From: Spirosoma sp. KCTC 42546
GTDB taxonomy: Bacteria > Bacteroidota > Bacteroidia > Cytophagales > Spirosomataceae
Length of the DNA stretch: 64,000 nucleotides
Direction of reading: 5' to 3'
NCBI RefSeq assembly: GCF_006965485.1
Contig: NZ_CP041360.1
Location: forward strand, 1,240,001 to 1,304,000
Shown piece after piece: positions 1 through 6,204 of the stretch; position 1 is the first letter of the stretch; each line of letters opens with the position of its first letter. Position numbers and translations under genes: made by a program. The notes below the pieces were generated by a model that saw only the letters and a list, made by a program, of their open reading frames with translations, was not told the DNA's origin and did not search any database.

Positions 1-959
1 CCATCCTTGCCCTGTGCATTCGGGTCAACGCCCCGACTTACTAGGAAATCGACAACGTCGATGTGGCCGTAGGTGCAGGCGTAGAAAAAGGCGGTTTCTA
101 ACTGAGCCGCTGGCTCGTCAGGTAGTCCCCAAGTCGTATCAGACTCGTTGGTTTTGACATGACCCTCTTCGGTAAAGAAACTCTGAACCAGTTTGAGCCG
201 CCCTAATCCGGCGGCAGCAACGACACTGTCTACACGCGCCCCATTTCGTCTGAGTAGTTCGGCGGCTTCGGGGCATCCGTTGGCCAGGGCTGCCATCAAC
301 GGTGGCCATCCGGTTGGTGTGCAATCAATGTTGGCACCGTAATTCAGCAGCGTGTCAATCAATGGAATTTGTACGCCAGCCCGCTTTGGGTGGATGCTGG
401 TAGCCACTAAGCCTAGCGTTGTGCCTTTGCCGTACGTGTCGGCGAGGGCATCGACTTCGGCACCCGCTTTGAGTAATAGTCGGGCTATGTCAACGACATT
501 ATCGGGCGATTTCTGGCGATAGTTCTCAACGCCATTCGCGCCGACGTAATGAAGAAGCATAGCCCGATGCACCCGCATTGAACGCATTCGAATCAGGTTT
601 GGATTGGCGATTAGCAGGGAGTCAAGCATGGCTATATTGCCCGTAACAACCGCATCTACTGCCGATTCGAATTGCCAGACCGCTGAATTGGCCAGCGTTG
701 CTTTCTCGACATAACTTGTCAGCTTGTCCCAATTTTCAAATCCATACACGCGGGCAATGAGTTGCTGAGCATCGGTCAGCAGGCATTCTGTGTCCTGACT
801 GGTTAATTCTGGCCAGTGTCGGAAATTCAGGTCGTTTTCTTGTATCTGTTGAATCTGCTGAGGGCCTTCTGATTGATAATTCGTGAGAAGCTCGTCAGCT
901 TGTTTTTCGTACTGGGCAAGGGGGGCGTCGAATGGTAAAGGTTGTATAGGTGGTGGCAT
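1..959 (-). CDS. Ankyrin-repeat protein (C-terminus beyond window)
   Basis: The gene starts at the ATG complementary to 957-959 and is still open at the left edge, giving about 319 visible codons. The first ~110 residues are helical, non-repeat sequence. After them come ankyrin-type repeats, for example LLKAGAEVDALADTYGKG, LLNYGANIDCTPTGWPPLM and FLVSRGVDPNAQGKDG. Ankyrin repeats mediate protein binding and have no catalytic role of their own. No signal peptide is visible, so it is probably cytoplasmic. It is last in a minus-strand gene run that includes a PARP-type ADP-ribosyltransferase, so it could be a partner, a target or an unrelated neighbour. The full length is unknown. Confidence 0.85.
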   Translation of the reverse strand, partial: MPPPIQPLPFDAPLAQYEKQADELLTNYQSEGPQQIQQIQENDLNFRHWPELTSQDTECLLTDAQQLIARVYGFENWDKLTSYVEKATLANSAVWQFESAVDAVVTGNIAMLDSLLIANPNLIRMRSMRVHRAMLLHYVGANGVENYRQKSPDNVVDIARLLLKAGAEVDALADTYGKGTTLGLVATSIHPKRAGVQIPLIDTLLNYGANIDCTPTGWPPLMAALANGCPEAAELLRRNGARVDSVVAAAGLGRLKLVQSFFTEEGHVKTNESDTTWGLPDEPAAQLETAFFYACTYGHIDVVDFLVSRGVDPNAQGKD

Positions 960-1061
960 ATGCGCGACTGAGTAGGAAGGTTAGCTTAGCGTGATAAAGT
1001 AGAAAAACTCGCAGGAGTGATTACCCCCACGAGTTCATGATGTACGCAACTTGCGTTGTGT

Positions 1062-1514
1062 TTAGGCCAGCGCCCTGGAAAACAAACCTACCCGCTCCCG
1101 GAGCAGATAGCTGCTGATATCGGTGCGGAGGTTACCGTTGAGGGTAAAGGCCCGCAACTCGGGCGACAGGTTGGCGTATTTGTCCAGCGCCTTGAACCAG
1201 GCGCTCCGATCCAAGTAAGGGGCTAACAAGATACGCGCCTGGCTCAGGGCACGGTGCTGGCGTGGCGACCAGATAGGGCGCTGCCGATAAATGTATCCCT
1301 GACCATTCAGCAGATCGGGCAGCGATTGTGGCGGTGCCATAGGAACCAACTCGGCCAGCAGGTACAAGCCTAATTCAACGTTTAACAATCGATTCGCCAC
1401 CATTCCCGGTAATGCATGCCGAAACCGAATTCGGGTAGCCAGCGGCTCCTGCCAGCGCAACAGACTGGCAAGGGCCGGGCGGGCAACAGGAGCGGTGGTG
1501 AGGAGCGTGTTCAT
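1062..1514 (-). CDS. Small protein of unknown family, paralog of 3745-4140
   Basis: A protein of 150 residues that I do not recognise. From about residue 44 it aligns with the 131-residue protein at 3745-4140. Both share an (V/D)LELGL(Y/F)LL...L-P-AP...LPDLL block, a central (R)(I/L)LL helix with a W-x-x-L-x-x-Y segment, and a closing R-x-(R/N)(V/L)G(L/V)-(F/L)-(S/R)-LA tail. It looks all-helical and cytoplasmic, with no signal peptide. The ATG lies 26 bp from a -7-like element with a palindromic operator upstream, the same layout as in its paralog. The paralogs sit on either side of the PARP/85-residue pair, so a role in the PARP locus is likely but unproven. Confidence 0.75.
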   Translation of the reverse strand: MNTLLTTAPVARPALASLLRWQEPLATRIRFRHALPGMVANRLLNVELGLYLLAELVPMAPPQSLPDLLNGQGYIYRQRPIWSPRQHRALSQARILLAPYLDRSAWFKALDKYANLSPELRAFTLNGNLRTDISSYLLRERVGLFSRALA

Positions 1515-1539
1515 TTGTATGTTTGTTTATTGTTCTATA

Positions 1540-1547
1540 CAAATATC
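1540..1547 (-). promoter_or_regulatory. -7 promoter element upstream of 1514
   Basis: On the minus strand this reads GATATTTG, one mismatch from the Bacteroidota -7 consensus TAnnTTTG. Its near edge is 26 bp from the ATG, exactly as for the TACTTTTG element of the paralog at 4166-4173. Confidence 0.5.
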
Positions 1548-1557
1548 ACCCTACTAG

Positions 1558-1576
1558 AACGTAATCTTTTTACGTT
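1558..1576. promoter_or_regulatory. Palindromic operator AACGTAA-N5-TTACGTT
   Basis: A perfect 7-bp inverted repeat, AACGTAATCTTTTTACGTT, lying 10 bp upstream of the -7 element and so over the spacer/-33 region. A near copy occurs at the same place before the paralog (4184-4202). The WYL regulator encoded at 4311 is the most likely binder (inference). Confidence 0.6.
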
Positions 1577-1603
1577 GTTCTTTATTTTTGATATTATTTT
1601 TCG

Positions 1604-1697
1604 AATAGAACGCTGATTTTTATGATGGTTATGATAAATATGATTTTTAGCTGAATCATAACCTTATCATATTGATCATAAAAATCAGTGTTCTATT
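1604..1697. repeat. 94-bp inverted repeat between 1514 and 1700 genes
   Basis: Arms 1604-1626 and 1675-1697 match at 22 of 23 positions. Inside them a second partial pair (GGTTATGAT and ATCATAACC) extends the fold. It sits just past the stop of the 85-residue gene and before the promoter of the 1514 gene, so it may work as a terminator or as a dispersed hairpin element. It is AT-rich, unlike the GC-rich hairpin at 2101. Confidence 0.7.
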
Positions 1698-1699
1698 GG

Positions 1700-1957
1700 T
1701 TAATTATTGATTGGCAGCGGAAGCGCTGTCTTTGGAAAGGAATAAATCCGGTGCTTTCCGTTGTCTTTAACGGCCCAGCTTTCCCAGAAACAAATCACCA
1801 GAAGCCATTGCGACACATCGTCCTGCCGGGCTTCGTAGCCGCGTCGGCGTAGTGACTTTTTGACGTCCAGCGTCGTGGTGCTGCCATTCGCCAGAATGAG
1901 TGCCGTGGCAATAAATCGAATCGCCAACGGGTCCAGTTTTTTACGTTGTGTCTCCAT
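1700..1957 (-). CDS. 85-residue protein, possible winged helix
   Basis: A protein of 85 residues with a start ATG at 1955-1957. I cannot name the family. The pattern of a helix (residues ~10-24), a short TTLDVKKSLRRRGYE segment, a further helix and a hydrophobic strand pair (FWESWAV / KHRIYSF) resembles a small winged-helix DNA-binding fold. This is only a pattern judgement. It lies downstream of the PARP gene on the same strand, separated by a GC-rich hairpin spacer, and upstream of the 150-residue paralog. Confidence 0.6.
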   Translation of the reverse strand: METQRKKLDPLAIRFIATALILANGSTTTLDVKKSLRRRGYEARQDDVSQWLLVICFWESWAVKDNGKHRIYSFPKTALPLPINN

Positions 1958-1998
1958 CTTATAACTGGTTAAAAATTACTTCTTTACAAGTCTGAAAA

Positions 1999-2250
1999 TA
2001 CCCCCAGCCCCCTGAAGGGGGCTAGGCCCGTATTTGAGATAAGCCCCCTTATTGATTTGTATTAATTAACCGCCTAAATAAAACTTGTCCTTTTTGGGCT
2101 TTCAAAACCCCCACCCCCCTGAAGGGGGCTTTTCTCCCCAGCGAACTAAGCCCCCTTCAGGGGGGTGGGGGTTTTGAAGACTAGCCAAACGGCGGTTAAT
2201 TTCTTCAAGTCAATCAGGGGGTTGGGGGTATTTGGGCCGTCAATTTTATT
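1999..2250. repeat. GC-rich dispersed hairpin cluster
   Basis: The main structure is a perfect 31-bp inverted repeat, arms 2101-2131 and 2148-2178, with a 16-nt loop. Its core is CCCCCTGAAGGGGG preceded by a C-run. A partial copy sits at 2001-2031, and a G-rich half remains near 2217-2230. It fills the gap between the PARP gene and the 85-residue gene and would block readthrough in either direction. Confidence 0.85.
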
Positions 2251-3607
2251 ACGATTTGATTCTGACGATGTACCGAACCGTACATTGCGCCTGGTTGTAA
2301 ACAATAAATTCGTTCTTTTGCAGACTAACTCCCTGACGGGCAAACACCGAATCGTAGCGCGTATCCAGTTGCTTTAGCGCTTCACCGTTCAGGCGCATGT
2401 GATGCGGTTCGTGTTGGGCCAGCTCCAGTTGCTCACCAACGTGTACTTCATAAATAGCCAGATAAGCTTCGCTCTGCCGACCATTGGCCCAGACCGAACC
2501 ATTCAGCGAGGTGTAGTTAAGCGATTTGCTGAACTGGTCGGCGAAATAGATCCCATAACCGAACATTTTGCCCGTAATAACCGCGTTGGCTGGACGTAGC
2601 ACCAGGCCATCTTTCAGGATCGATAGCCAGTTTTCGCTACGGCTTCCGTGCCAGAGAGCCAGCGTTTTACGGTTTGTCTGTTTGCTTACATAGGCGTTAA
2701 AAGCAGCATCGGTAGCGGCATGACGCACACTGAAAGCCGCGTCGAATTTGTTGGCATCATCACCCATCATTTTCTTGATGAGTTTTAGGACGTGGTTGTC
2801 TGTTTCAGGCTCGATAACCAGATTCATGCTTTCGAGCAACGTTGGCGGTGCCTGATTTGATGCTCTCGGTGCGGGAGCCAGTTCAACCTGACCGCGCATG
2901 ACGTCGAGGGTAGATTGCTCGTCGGCGAGGTGATCGCGGAGGGGTTGCAGATCATCGGCTGATTGGGGCGTTTCGCCTGCCAGATGCTGGCCTACGTGGG
3001 CCATCCGACGCGGAATTACTTTAAATAGCTCAAGTAGTTTGGTGTTGTACGCACCCGTATCCATGCCCACTTTTAATTGCGCAGCCAGATCGTCGAGCAA
3101 TTGCTGGGCTGATTCGACCTGTTTGCGCGTAACCTGCTGGGCCGTAACGACATAGTTTTGAAAAATAGACAGATTAGCCAATTCCAACAACCGACTCATC
3201 AGGCTACGCACCGTTGGTTCGGCAATAGTGCTGGCGTCTGTAGCGGGTGCCGATTCAGCAAAAAGGTGCGTCTGGTTGGTATAGCCTTTCGACGTTTTTT
3301 CGCGGAGTTTTTGATTCCATTGCGCTATTGGATGGGTGGCCTTATTGCGAAAGCCACCCACCCGACCGTAGAAAACGTCGAATGTACCGTTCTCATTTTC
3401 ACGCATTTCATAGTATTTGTTGTTGTTTTCAGCCGTCACCATAATCAGCTTCACCGTCCGAAGATTCGGGTTGGGTGAATCGGCTGGTGACGGCTTGTCC
3501 TGTTCAGCAGAGGAAAGGGCCAGTGTAGTTGGGTGCGGACGAACTGTGGTATCGATAACGGATGGAGCAGAACGATTCCATACCCGTTGTAGCAACTGGT
3601 TGAGCAT
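2249..3607 (-). CDS. WGR-PARP: bacterial poly(ADP-ribose) polymerase-like ADP-ribosyltransferase
   Basis: A protein of 452 residues with the architecture of eukaryotic PARP2-like enzymes. Residues ~50-115 form a WGR domain, where the signature reads YGRVGG in place of WGRVG. Residues ~135-225 form the helical PARP regulatory domain. Residues ~265-452 form the catalytic domain. The H-Y-E triad is visible: His320 in LWHGSR, Tyr354 in GYGIYFAD, and Glu433 in KNEFIVYNQ. The intact glutamate argues for polymerising or glutamate-type chemistry using NAD+. WGR domains in PARPs sense DNA ends, so activation by DNA damage or foreign DNA is plausible. It is cytoplasmic. No macrodomain or PARG hydrolase is visible nearby. 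Bacterial members are known but uncommon. Confidence 0.92.
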   Translation of the reverse strand: MLNQLLQRVWNRSAPSVIDTTVRPHPTTLALSSAEQDKPSPADSPNPNLRTVKLIMVTAENNNKYYEMRENENGTFDVFYGRVGGFRNKATHPIAQWNQKLREKTSKGYTNQTHLFAESAPATDASTIAEPTVRSLMSRLLELANLSIFQNYVVTAQQVTRKQVESAQQLLDDLAAQLKVGMDTGAYNTKLLELFKVIPRRMAHVGQHLAGETPQSADDLQPLRDHLADEQSTLDVMRGQVELAPAPRASNQAPPTLLESMNLVIEPETDNHVLKLIKKMMGDDANKFDAAFSVRHAATDAAFNAYVSKQTNRKTLALWHGSRSENWLSILKDGLVLRPANAVITGKMFGYGIYFADQFSKSLNYTSLNGSVWANGRQSEAYLAIYEVHVGEQLELAQHEPHHMRLNGEALKQLDTRYDSVFARQGVSLQKNEFIVYNQAQCTVRYIVRIKS

Positions 3608-3619
3608 ACGAATAGTCAG

Positions 3620-3745
3620 ATAGGGTTTTATTGATTGTCATTAGTAGTCATTGGCGGGGCGTCATTCGTTGTCAGTACTGGTTATTAATTGCTTAGGCAA
3701 CCAATGACCATTCATGGCAATCAATGACCACCAATGACTATGAAT
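3620..3745. repeat. Dispersed inverted repeat, AATGACCATTCATG family
   Basis: GTCATT-rich left half and AATGAC-rich right half between the PARP start and the 131-residue gene. The segment AATGACCATTCATG recurs in the spacer at 58868-58976, which has the same inverted layout. Confidence 0.65.
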
Positions 3746-4140
3746 CAAGCCAGCATTTTGCGTAAGACACCGAGCCGGTTGCGGGAGAAACCGACGGTTT
3801 TTTCGGAAAAATGACTGCAATCAGGACTAAGGTCATACGCTAACCGATGGCCGGGCGCAGAGGCATAGGCGGCTAGCAGATCCTGCCAGTGAAGATTATA
3901 GGCAAAGTGAGACAGCAATAGTCGTCCCCGGTTCAGGTATTTTTTCTGTTTGGGTGTCAGGTCAGACCAACTCGTATCGTCGGGCCGGAGTAGATCGGGT
4001 AGCGCCGTTGCCGGAGCGTCGGGGTGTAGTTGCTGAAGCAAAAACAGACCCAGTTCAAGGTCAACTAATTGCCGGGTCGAAAGCGACGGGCGGGGCGTGT
4101 AAGCCGGGGTATTTGTGCGAGGACGTGAGGTATGAGTCAT
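3745..4140 (-). CDS. Small protein of unknown family, paralog of 1062-1514
   Basis: A protein of 131 residues, unrecognised and probably helical and cytoplasmic. It shares with the 150-residue protein at 1062-1514 the LELGL-LL / LPDLL block, the (R)LLL helix and the RLGVLRKMLA-type end. The N-terminal ~20 residues are polar and Pro/Thr-rich and differ between the two. It is first in the minus-strand run, directly upstream of the PARP gene and divergent from the WYL regulator. Its promoter copies that of its paralog in every spacing. The duplication therefore included the regulatory region, or both regions are held by selection for one regulator. Confidence 0.75.
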   Translation of the reverse strand: MTHTSRPRTNTPAYTPRPSLSTRQLVDLELGLFLLQQLHPDAPATALPDLLRPDDTSWSDLTPKQKKYLNRGRLLLSHFAYNLHWQDLLAAYASAPGHRLAYDLSPDCSHFSEKTVGFSRNRLGVLRKMLA

Positions 4141-4165
4141 GATAAGTCTAAGTAATTGTCCGATT

Positions 4166-4173
4166 CAAAAGTA
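4166..4173 (-). promoter_or_regulatory. -7 promoter element TACTTTTG upstream of 4140
   Basis: A full match to TAnnTTTG on the minus strand, 26 bp from the ATG and 10 bp from the operator at 4184-4202. Confidence 0.6.
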
Positions 4174-4183
4174 TAACCCTCAA

Positions 4184-4202
4184 AACGTAATCTATTTACG
4201 GC
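4184..4202. promoter_or_regulatory. Operator, second copy of AACGTAA-N5-TTACG
   Basis: AACGTAATCTATTTACGGC: the left arm is identical to the site at 1558-1576, and the right arm keeps five of seven bases. Both sites are flanked by ACCCT on one side and TTCTTT on the other. It lies between the divergent 4140 and 4311 genes. Confidence 0.6.
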
Positions 4203-4310
4203 CTTCTTTTTTTGTTAAAATTATTTTTCTCTTCTTTGTCATCGCTAATCGTATCTGTTGTACGTGTGTATATATTTCATGTGCAATATATAATATAAAT
4301 ATAGTATTCC

Positions 4311-5381
4311 ATGCCAATCACGCGTTCTGCCTTTCAACGGTATCGACTTATTGATGAAATTATCAGCCGATACCCACGCCGATACTCCAAGCAGAAACTC
4401 TTTGAACTGTGTCAGGACAAGTGTGGAATTCGGTCTATTTCATCGCTCGAAAAAGACATTCAGCGAATGCGTGAGGATCACGATGCGCCTATTGAATACG
4501 ACAAACGGGCCAACGGCTATTATTACAGCAATCCACAGTTCAGGCTCCTGAACTTAATGCTGACTCCCGACGACATGGAAGCGTTGGAACAGGCGCGGGA
4601 AGTATTGGCCGCTACGCAGGGGGCATCGGTAGCCGACGAACTGGATAACGCCCTGCAACGTGTGCGGCAGAGTCTCGACATTATTCGGGAGGTAAAAACC
4701 GATGCGCCTACGCGACGGGTGGTGTATGTCGAGGAGAAAATTCTGGGAGGTAATCGCCAGTACGTTCCTGTGTTAATTCGGGCGGTGAACCAGAACCGGC
4801 AGGTGGCGTTTCGCTACCTCAAGCACGAGGATGCCGTGTCGATGAATGGTAGTATGGCCGTACGAAAAGCCAAAGCCCGGACCGTTGACCCAAGCCTAAT
4901 AACACCTGAACGACCCAAGCTGCGTATTCTGCACCCGATTTTATTGCGGGAAGTGGCGGATAGCTGGTACGTCATTGGTTATGATGCGGCCAGTGGTGGC
5001 GAACGAACCTTCGCCCTCGATCGTATGAGCGAACTCGAACTGCTGGACGATCCCTGCGACGTACCACCCGCCATCTTGACCAACGTGAGTGAGTTATTCG
5101 AGCACATCTTCGGTATAACCGATAGCCACGGCCCGGTCGAAGAGATTGTGCTATCGTTCAGCCCGTTGTTTGGTCGCTATGTAACGACGAAACCCATTCA
5201 CCAAACGCAGGAAGTCTTGAGCGACACAGACACCGAGTGCGTCATACGCCTTCGACTGGCACCCAACCGCGATCTGCTCATGCACCTCCGCAGCTACGGC
5301 GAACACCTGACGGTATTGAAACCGGCTAGCCTAGTGCAGGAGATGAAAACGTCGTTAGAAGCAACGCTGGCGCGGTATTAG
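4311..5381 (+). CDS. WYL-domain transcriptional regulator
   Basis: A protein of 356 residues. An N-terminal winged helix-turn-helix (residues ~5-70, with SSLEKDIQRMREDHDAPIEY as its recognition half) precedes a WYL domain at ~150-245. The signature appears as W219-Y220-V221, followed by FALDRMSEL. A C-terminal WCX-like extension occupies ~255-356. WYL proteins bind nucleic-acid ligands or nucleotides and often control defence and DNA-repair genes. It is divergent from the 131-residue gene and next to the operator at 4184, so it is the natural candidate to control both operator copies. Whether it represses or activates cannot be read from sequence. Confidence 0.9.
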   Translation: MPITRSAFQRYRLIDEIISRYPRRYSKQKLFELCQDKCGIRSISSLEKDIQRMREDHDAPIEYDKRANGYYYSNPQFRLLNLMLTPDDMEALEQAREVLAATQGASVADELDNALQRVRQSLDIIREVKTDAPTRRVVYVEEKILGGNRQYVPVLIRAVNQNRQVAFRYLKHEDAVSMNGSMAVRKAKARTVDPSLITPERPKLRILHPILLREVADSWYVIGYDAASGGERTFALDRMSELELLDDPCDVPPAILTNVSELFEHIFGITDSHGPVEEIVLSFSPLFGRYVTTKPIHQTQEVLSDTDTECVIRLRLAPNRDLLMHLRSYGEHLTVLKPASLVQEMKTSLEATLARY

Positions 5382-5679
5382 GGGTGTATTTCAGTGATGG
5401 CGGTTATAAGTAACCGACACCACAGCGTATCTGAACGTTAGCTGACAAATAATGTATGCCCTCATTTACAACGACCCTACCGTTCACCATTCTCGCTTGG
5501 CTACGCCGAGTGATTTAACGGCCTCTGGCCGGAGTAACACGTCAAAAACGGGCCAGAGGCCCTTTAATAACCCTCACTCGGCGTAGCCAAGCGAGAACGT
5601 GAGAATCGCAACGGCGAACCGTCCTAAAATGTTGGTTATAAGTAACTGCCATCACTGCACCCCGATTAAAGAATAGTCT
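5381..5679. repeat. Nested hairpin element with duplicated gene start
   Basis: Perfect 24-bp arms at 5490-5513 and 5574-5597 enclose a second perfect 11-bp pair (5520-5530 and 5551-5561, GGCCTCTGGCC type). Outside them, GGTTATAAGTAAC occurs as a direct repeat at 5402-5414 and 5634-5646. The start of the downstream gene (ATGCCCACATTTACAACAAT, from 5680) has a close copy at 5456-5477. The layout suggests insertion of a hairpin with duplication of the flanking 5' region. Confidence 0.8.
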
Positions 5680-6204
5680 ATGCCCACATTTACAACAATC
5701 CTTCAAAAGTTTGGCGAGAAAGGTGATAAAACCCGGTGGACGTACATCGAAATTCCACTTGCCATCAGCGACGAGCTGAAACCCGGTCAGAAAAAGGCGT
5801 TTCGGGTGAAGGGTACGCTGGATAATCACCCGATCAAACTCGTGTCCCTGTTGCCGATGGGGCGCTCCCTGAATCCGGACGGCGGCTTTATGATGCCTAT
5901 TAACGCGGGTATGCGCCGTGGGATGGGCAAAGAAGAAGAGGGAACACAAATCACGGTTACCCTTGAGCTGGACACGGACCCCTTGCCGCAATCTGCCGAC
6001 CTGCTCGACTGCCTGGAGGATGACCCGGCCGCATTGGCCCATTTCCGGAAACTAAGCCCGAGTCACCAGAATTACTTCAGCAACTGGATTGAAGACGCCA
6101 AAACGATCGAAACCAAAACCAAACGACTGACGCAGGCCGTCACGGGCTTGTCTATGGGCATGGATTTTGGTCAGATGATCCGGCACTCTAAGAAGAAGGA
6201 GTAA
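5680..6204 (+). CDS. DUF1905 / YdeI-OmpD-associated family protein
   Basis: A protein of 174 residues. The first ~95 match the DUF1905 pattern: a beta-rich segment with W-x-x-I-x-(I/L)P and a KVKG/FRVKG-like strand, followed by the GRSLNPDGGFMMPIN region. Residues ~105-150 match the YdeI/OmpD-associated module (FRKLSPSHQNYFSNWIEDA, then a K/T-rich helix). Members have been linked to bacteriocin protection or stress in other bacteria, but the molecular function is not established. It has no signal peptide and is probably cytoplasmic. Its own first codons are duplicated 224 bp upstream in the hairpin element. Confidence 0.85.
   Translation: MPTFTTILQKFGEKGDKTRWTYIEIPLAISDELKPGQKKAFRVKGTLDNHPIKLVSLLPMGRSLNPDGGFMMPINAGMRRGMGKEEEGTQITVTLELDTDPLPQSADLLDCLEDDPAALAHFRKLSPSHQNYFSNWIEDAKTIETKTKRLTQAVTGLSMGMDFGQMIRHSKKKE

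Follow-up and report, generated by a model that had tools for sequence, protein, structure and literature searches.

The 64,000-nucleotide stretch of Spirosoma sp. KCTC 42546 analysed here (the window; positions 1,240,001-1,304,000 of the single 8.66-Mb chromosome) opens with a locus that is probably the core of a genotoxic-stress regulon activated by a WYL-domain regulator, with a DNA-break-sensing PARP as an optional effector. The regulator faces genes for two small proteins of family PF18155 (the Z proteins), the PARP and a protein of 85 residues, S85. All six open reading frames (ORFs) reported in a preliminary description of this DNA were found in place. The features are given below in window coordinates.

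4311..5381, plus strand: WYL regulator, 356 residues, N-terminal winged helix-turn-helix (wHTH, by position), WYL (PF13280) and WCX (PF25583)
4186..4200, minus strand: operator 2, CGTAAATAGATTACG; with TTTG 16 bases on, composite 4166-4200
3745..4140, minus strand: Z protein, 131 residues (PF18155, E 3e-11; PADLOC pPIWI_RE_Z, 1.8e-11)
2249..3607, minus strand: WGR-helical-PARP catalytic protein, 452 residues, with H320-Y354-E433 (Pfam, alignments)
3269..3433, minus strand: WGR domain of the PARP, residues 59-113 (PF05406, 16.4 bits, sub-threshold)
1700..1957, minus strand: S85, 85 residues, predicted winged helix and PARP partner (AlphaFold2, Foldseek)
1560..1574, minus strand: operator 1, CGTAAAAAGATTACG; with TTTG 16 bases on, composite 1540-1574
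1062..1514, minus strand: Z protein, 150 residues (PF18155, E 3.8e-18)
1..959, minus strand: ankyrin-repeat gene, cut by the window edge; the full protein of 420 residues is at L001 17697-18959

A 15-bp palindrome, CGTAA-N5-TTACG, stands before each of the two Z genes, and these two copies compare with 0.05 expected in the 64-kb window. When 101 Z genes were examined, 75 had the exact palindrome and 13 a version with one mismatch; 7 of the 13 with neither were second genes of a tandem. The letters TTTG, the end of the -7 promoter box, followed exactly 16 bases after the site in 88/88 distinct sites before Z genes, and the site therefore lies where the -33 element should be. Judged from these letters, the geometry is that of genotoxic-stress WYL activators, in which a palindrome covers -35/-33 at a fixed distance from -10/-7. 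The palindrome with TTTG 16 bases on (the composite) was searched for in 200 family genomes, 56 with Z genes and 144 without. It gave 115 matches versus 30 for the reversed control pattern, and was present in 55/56 Z genomes versus 9/144 non-Z genomes (Fisher p 2e-38); G080 had it only at a loose, off-cluster place. Composites with the core AAAG[AG] or ATAG[AT] occurred in 51/56 Z genomes and 0/144 others.

The site was also found away from the cluster. Eight off-cluster composites with the core AAAG[AG], all in Z genomes, precede genes for S85 (2; G038 and G002, with a Z gene some 9 and 15 kb away), RNase_T exonucleases (2; G188 and G161) and VOC proteins (4; a first type in G056, G008 and G161, a second in G170). 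With one mismatch allowed, eight chosen genomes showed more sites before VOC and GNAT genes, and one VOC protein behind a site (L147) matched pfam18029 over the cut-off (25.3 bits). Detached Z genes carried the exact site at L087, L091 and L095 (G002, G038 and G067) and a site with one mismatch at L093 (G054). For the detached PARP-S85 of Fibrella aquatilis, a site with one mismatch lies 52 bp before the PARP gene.

Gene maps were drawn for 94 loci, excluding 33 that were short or overlapping; the loci were fetched by Z or PARP, and WYL genes elsewhere fall outside the counts. WYL was divergent from the nearest Z gene in 51/51 distinct loci having both. PARP was present in 27 of these (full length in 23, shortened in 4) and absent from 24, and is an optional part, not core. 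S85 accompanied it in 27/27 loci, occurred in 11/24 loci lacking PARP and was missing from 13/51 overall. By genome, PARP was found in 33/200 family genomes, 32/56 with Z versus 1/144 others (Fisher p 1e-20). The conserved neighbourhood and the co-occurrence of the Z family with PARP, both proposed as checks in the preliminary description, were thus observed. Outside the family, S85 followed PARP in 7/13 loci (L020-L026, L028, L029 and L032-L034, titled other Bacteroidota, and L037, titled Thalassovita) and in 0/7 of L036 and L038-L043 (titled Clostridium, Ruminococcus and kin). With PARP-S85 pairs present beyond the family as well, the locus combines two modules, WYL-Z-Z and PARP-S85. The gamma-resistant strain ES10-3-2-2 (PMC11354047) has this PARP (P0051).

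The WYL and WCX domains of the regulator passed the Pfam cut-offs, and its wHTH was judged from position and conservation only. The N-terminus is almost invariant across genera, and W219-Y220-V221 and the WYL domain arginines R205, R213 and R238 were kept in 51/51 loci, with R or K at 232. The regulator is presumably the protein that binds the palindrome. The nearest solved structures were 7u02, 7tzv, 9cu3, 9pfq and 8tp8, together with PafBC; a passage of PMC11804915 identifies 8tp8 as DriD and describes PafBC as activated by single-stranded DNA (ssDNA) at its WYL domains.

DriD of Caulobacter crescentus resembles the present regulator in its WYL-WCX order behind a wHTH (putative here), a palindrome over -35, a divergent operon and an exonuclease in a small regulon. 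Passages of PMC12340889 place it over -35 of a bidirectional promoter, at a fixed distance from -10, from where it activates the divergent operon, and assign to it a small damage regulon with recJ. Its consensus there differs (ATACGAC-N7-GTCGTAT), PARP and Z are not among the targets that those passages name, and the two regulators share only about 40 bits of similarity. SiwR of Mycobacterium smegmatis, as portrayed in parts of PMC10693628, is a zeocin-responsive WYL activator with an imperfect palindrome upstream of -10, genotoxic induction and, in some Actinobacteria, pfam18029 (glyoxalase-like) neighbours. It differs in controlling DinB/YfiT-like genes, and those parts describe no PARP or Z. 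Its authors write there that WYL regulators known from phage defence act by repression and those of genotoxic stress by activation. A site fixed over -33, divergent genes and members that encode an exonuclease, VOC and GNAT proteins are all consistent with the activator class.

Both small paralogs, described earlier as being of no known family, match PF18155 (pPIWI_RE_Z), with 66.4 and 44 bits versus a Pfam cut-off of 25. They are 29% identical, and the AlphaFold2 model of the 150-residue protein is almost all-helical (predicted local distance difference test, pLDDT, 80.6). Domain Z of PF18155 has been described within the DinG-type helicase of a predicted RNA-guided restriction island. That island comprises three genes (REase, Z-DinG helicase and pPIWI-RE), and its domain Z corresponds to both small proteins; here, in contrast, the Z proteins are standalone and usually come in pairs. 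The REase, DinG helicase and pPIWI-RE genes are absent from this locus, and no RNaseH_pPIWI_RE (PF13032) match was found in the genome. Among 36 genus genomes, 3 have pPIWI-RE; in 2 it lies about 20 kb or less from the cluster, in one case with the palindrome at pPIWI-RE. In Spirosoma fluviale (L008), whose pPIWI-RE triad lies a few kb from the Z-PARP cluster, the pPIWI_RE_REase gene (PF18154, E 3.4e-31) has the site 45 bp upstream. Among the papers whose texts were searched, none contains pPIWI_RE_Z or PF18155, and a single one contains pPIWI-RE.

The catalytic domain of the PARP matched Pfam with E 9.6e-28, and H320, Y354 and E433 were confirmed as described earlier. Among 48 distinct PARP ORFs, the triad was conserved at H in 48/48, Y in 44/48 and E in 47/48. 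The one ORF without E, L043, is split into two pieces, and the four with a changed Y are shortened forms, without the helical domain in L104 and L105 and without WGR and helical domain in L102 and L103. WGR and PARP regulatory domains had also been proposed. A helical domain is supported by alignment with human PARP1 from residue 159, and the Pfam search gave no PARP_reg match. WGR (PF05406) stayed below the cut-off of 22 bits in this protein and is a precomputed label in relatives P0019 and P0022 (66-67% identical); Tyr-Gly-Arg was found at residues 80-82 in 46/46 rows with letters there. The nearest relative is from Spirosoma migulaei (97%). The Cytophagales PARPs of clade 1.1, in portions of PMC5966428, are similar, with WGR and catalytic domains, no defined PARP_reg and mostly Tyr first in the WGR motif. 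Those portions describe no operator, S85 or Z partner, and the words operon and Spirosoma appear nowhere in the text of that paper. A phage PARP, 30% identical, was seen in L191 (Cellulophaga phage phi17:2_18), in a row with DNA ligase, methylase and 154-residue unknown genes.

A winged-helix fold is predicted for S85, in line with the earlier suggestion. Its AlphaFold2 model (pLDDT 86.5) has the order H-H-H-E-E, and the top Foldseek rows were mostly winged-helix regulators (BlaI, PadR, Fur), the best with E 0.013 and none reaching 0.001. In L020, a Saprospiraceae relative, S85 and a WGR domain that passes the cut-off (PF05406, E 1e-6) form a single fusion protein. Longer S85 proteins of 290-315 residues follow PARP in L020, L032, L033 and L034 (other Bacteroidota); that of L034 gave no WGR match over the cut-off, and those of L032-L034 are WGR-like by eye. 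In L028, a Cytophagales metagenome-assembled genome whose 7.7-kb contig gave no WYL or Z match, a loose palindrome, CGTAAATCTGTTACG, was seen at 4287-4301, 48 bp before PARP. Reversal of ADP-ribosylation had been expected to need another locus. One macrodomain match was found in the genome, unlinked to the PARP (G000:C1:3197278-3197616, L189; E 1.2e-48), and this gene could be a candidate ADP-ribose eraser.

The sequence itself shows which families the proteins belong to, how the genes are ordered, and that the site exists, keeps a fixed spacing and recurs at detached members; binding of the site by WYL, activation by it, ssDNA as inducer and the Z and PARP functions are proposed. On DNA damage, ssDNA would bind the WYL/WCX part of the regulator, as suggested by DriD, PafBC and SiwR. 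The regulator would then occupy CGTAA-N5-TTACG, centred near -32, at promoters with no recognisable -33 box and, given the invariant spacing, may help RNA polymerase to start. Both Z genes would be switched on, and with them PARP and S85 where present, behind the Z operators or an operator of their own. The WGR-PARP, activated by DNA ends, would ADP-ribosylate itself and nearby repair factors, with S85 possibly helping it to dock on DNA. The Z pair may act as an adaptor for DNA, R-loops or a helicase, a role also possible for domain Z in the pPIWI-RE DinG helicase.

Several observations weigh against this proposal. In 51/51 loci, residue 235 is Ala where the DriD row has Arg, and A235 seems to replace one of two ssDNA-binding arginines of PafB, matched by eye; their joint mutation abolished ssDNA binding by PafB, according to a passage of PMC11804915. 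No WYL gene lies near Z in L087, L091, L093, L095, L110 and L111. The first T of the -7 box was kept in only 23/88 sites, loose palindromes in the organism's own genome were at chance (10 versus 11 for the control), and the -7 spacing differs at the S. fluviale pPIWI-RE site. The VOC and GNAT sites of L183, L184, L150 and L144 lie within hairpins of 30-43 bp, in which the arms vary and the core CGTAAAAAG[AG]TTACG is constant, and these palindromes could be terminators. The main texts on radiation-resistant S. montaniterrae and on strain ES10-3-2-2 (PMC11354047) mention neither WYL nor ADP-ribose.

The preliminary description had left the choice between a DNA-damage and an anti-phage ADP-ribosylation system. 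In a defence system, WYL would repress until phage DNA appeared, PARP would deplete NAD+ or modify phage or host targets, and the Z proteins would be sensors or immunity factors. WYL repressors guard CBASS and BREX, as passages of PMC9122601 and PMC10693628 relate, and the WYL gene here, like BrxR/CapW, lies beside possible defence genes. WYL matched PADLOC CRISPR-associated WYL models (E 3.2e-37) and Z matched pPIWI_RE_Z, all of them accessory models. The S. fluviale REase gene behind a site near the cluster points the same way, as do at least 8 changes of PARP state on starred branches of a quick WYL tree, a pattern like that of gene sets under conflict. Nevertheless, Z genes were found in 34/34 Spirosoma genomes drawn, unlike patchy defence genes, and PARP and S85 gave no PADLOC match. 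The repressor BrxR has its site just downstream of the promoter in the part of PMC9122601 cited, whereas the palindrome here precedes the -7 box by a constant distance. The off-cluster exonuclease, VOC and GNAT genes look like repair or detoxification. Since both Z genes carry the same site, an inducible DNA-damage response is favoured over a classic anti-phage island, which we regard as rather unlikely; the conserved WYL unit and its DNA-damage flavour were upheld.

PARP without S85 was seen in none of the 27 PARP-bearing WYL loci and S85 without PARP in 11 of the 24 other WYL loci, the pattern of an antidote, and the active-site Tyr is changed in four shortened PARPs; a PARP toxin held in check by S85 or a Z protein would account for this. 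S85 is, however, a predicted winged helix, it was not found beside PARP in 13/39 PARP loci (none titled Spirosomataceae genera), and Z pairs persist where PARP is gone, which makes a toxin-antitoxin pair very improbable. The predicted DNA-binding fold of S85, and the site before some S85 genes, would also suit an operator belonging to S85 or to an unlinked regulator, with WYL serving something else. Against this, the 13 WYL loci with no S85 in the cluster include four with exact sites (L073, L075, L098 and L099), and the near-invariance of the WYL N-terminus parallels that of the site. This assignment of the operator is quite unlikely.

The ankyrin gene, previously counted as part of the set, is present, its repeats being a Pfam match. 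It was in the same gene row in only 5 loci (its own, L005, L006, L080 and L122), as an optional follower of the operon, and its protein matched the PADLOC candidate model PDC-M72A (8.2e-7). Between S85 and PARP, G-rich inverted repeats occupy 1997-2178 (arms 2101-2131/2148-2178, 31 nt, 100% complementary); because PARP and S85 directly abut or overlap in several relatives, they look like an inserted repeat element. A perfect 24-nt inverted repeat with a 60-nt spacer (5490-5597) separates WYL from a DUF1905-OmdA gene in the same direction (5680-6204). This family was found in 29 mapped loci; in the Larkinella loci L010, L013 and L014 it does not adjoin WYL.

WYL damage regulons are already known; new here are the operator, the effectors and the use of the Z family outside its island. 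Among the literature matches listed, none dealt with how bacterial PARPs of this type are regulated or with a PARP/WYL/Spirosoma unit. The promoter, 15-bp site and gene set of the locus are open to test, and the genus includes the radiation-resistant S. montaniterrae. As a more speculative extension, which we consider doubtful, one ssDNA-sensing WYL regulator might command two layers, PARP signals from DNA breaks in many carriers and RNA-guided pPIWI-RE restriction in S. fluviale, with standalone Z as a shared adaptor coupling either effector to damaged or R-looped DNA. Were these two layers real, repair and self/non-self attack would use one switch and one docking part, and a bacterial PARP would have a defined damage-inducible promoter. 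In Spirosoma and its soil relatives, the conserved gene set would connect PARP signalling of a eukaryote-like kind to a WYL-based damage switch and to a restriction island predicted to be RNA-guided.

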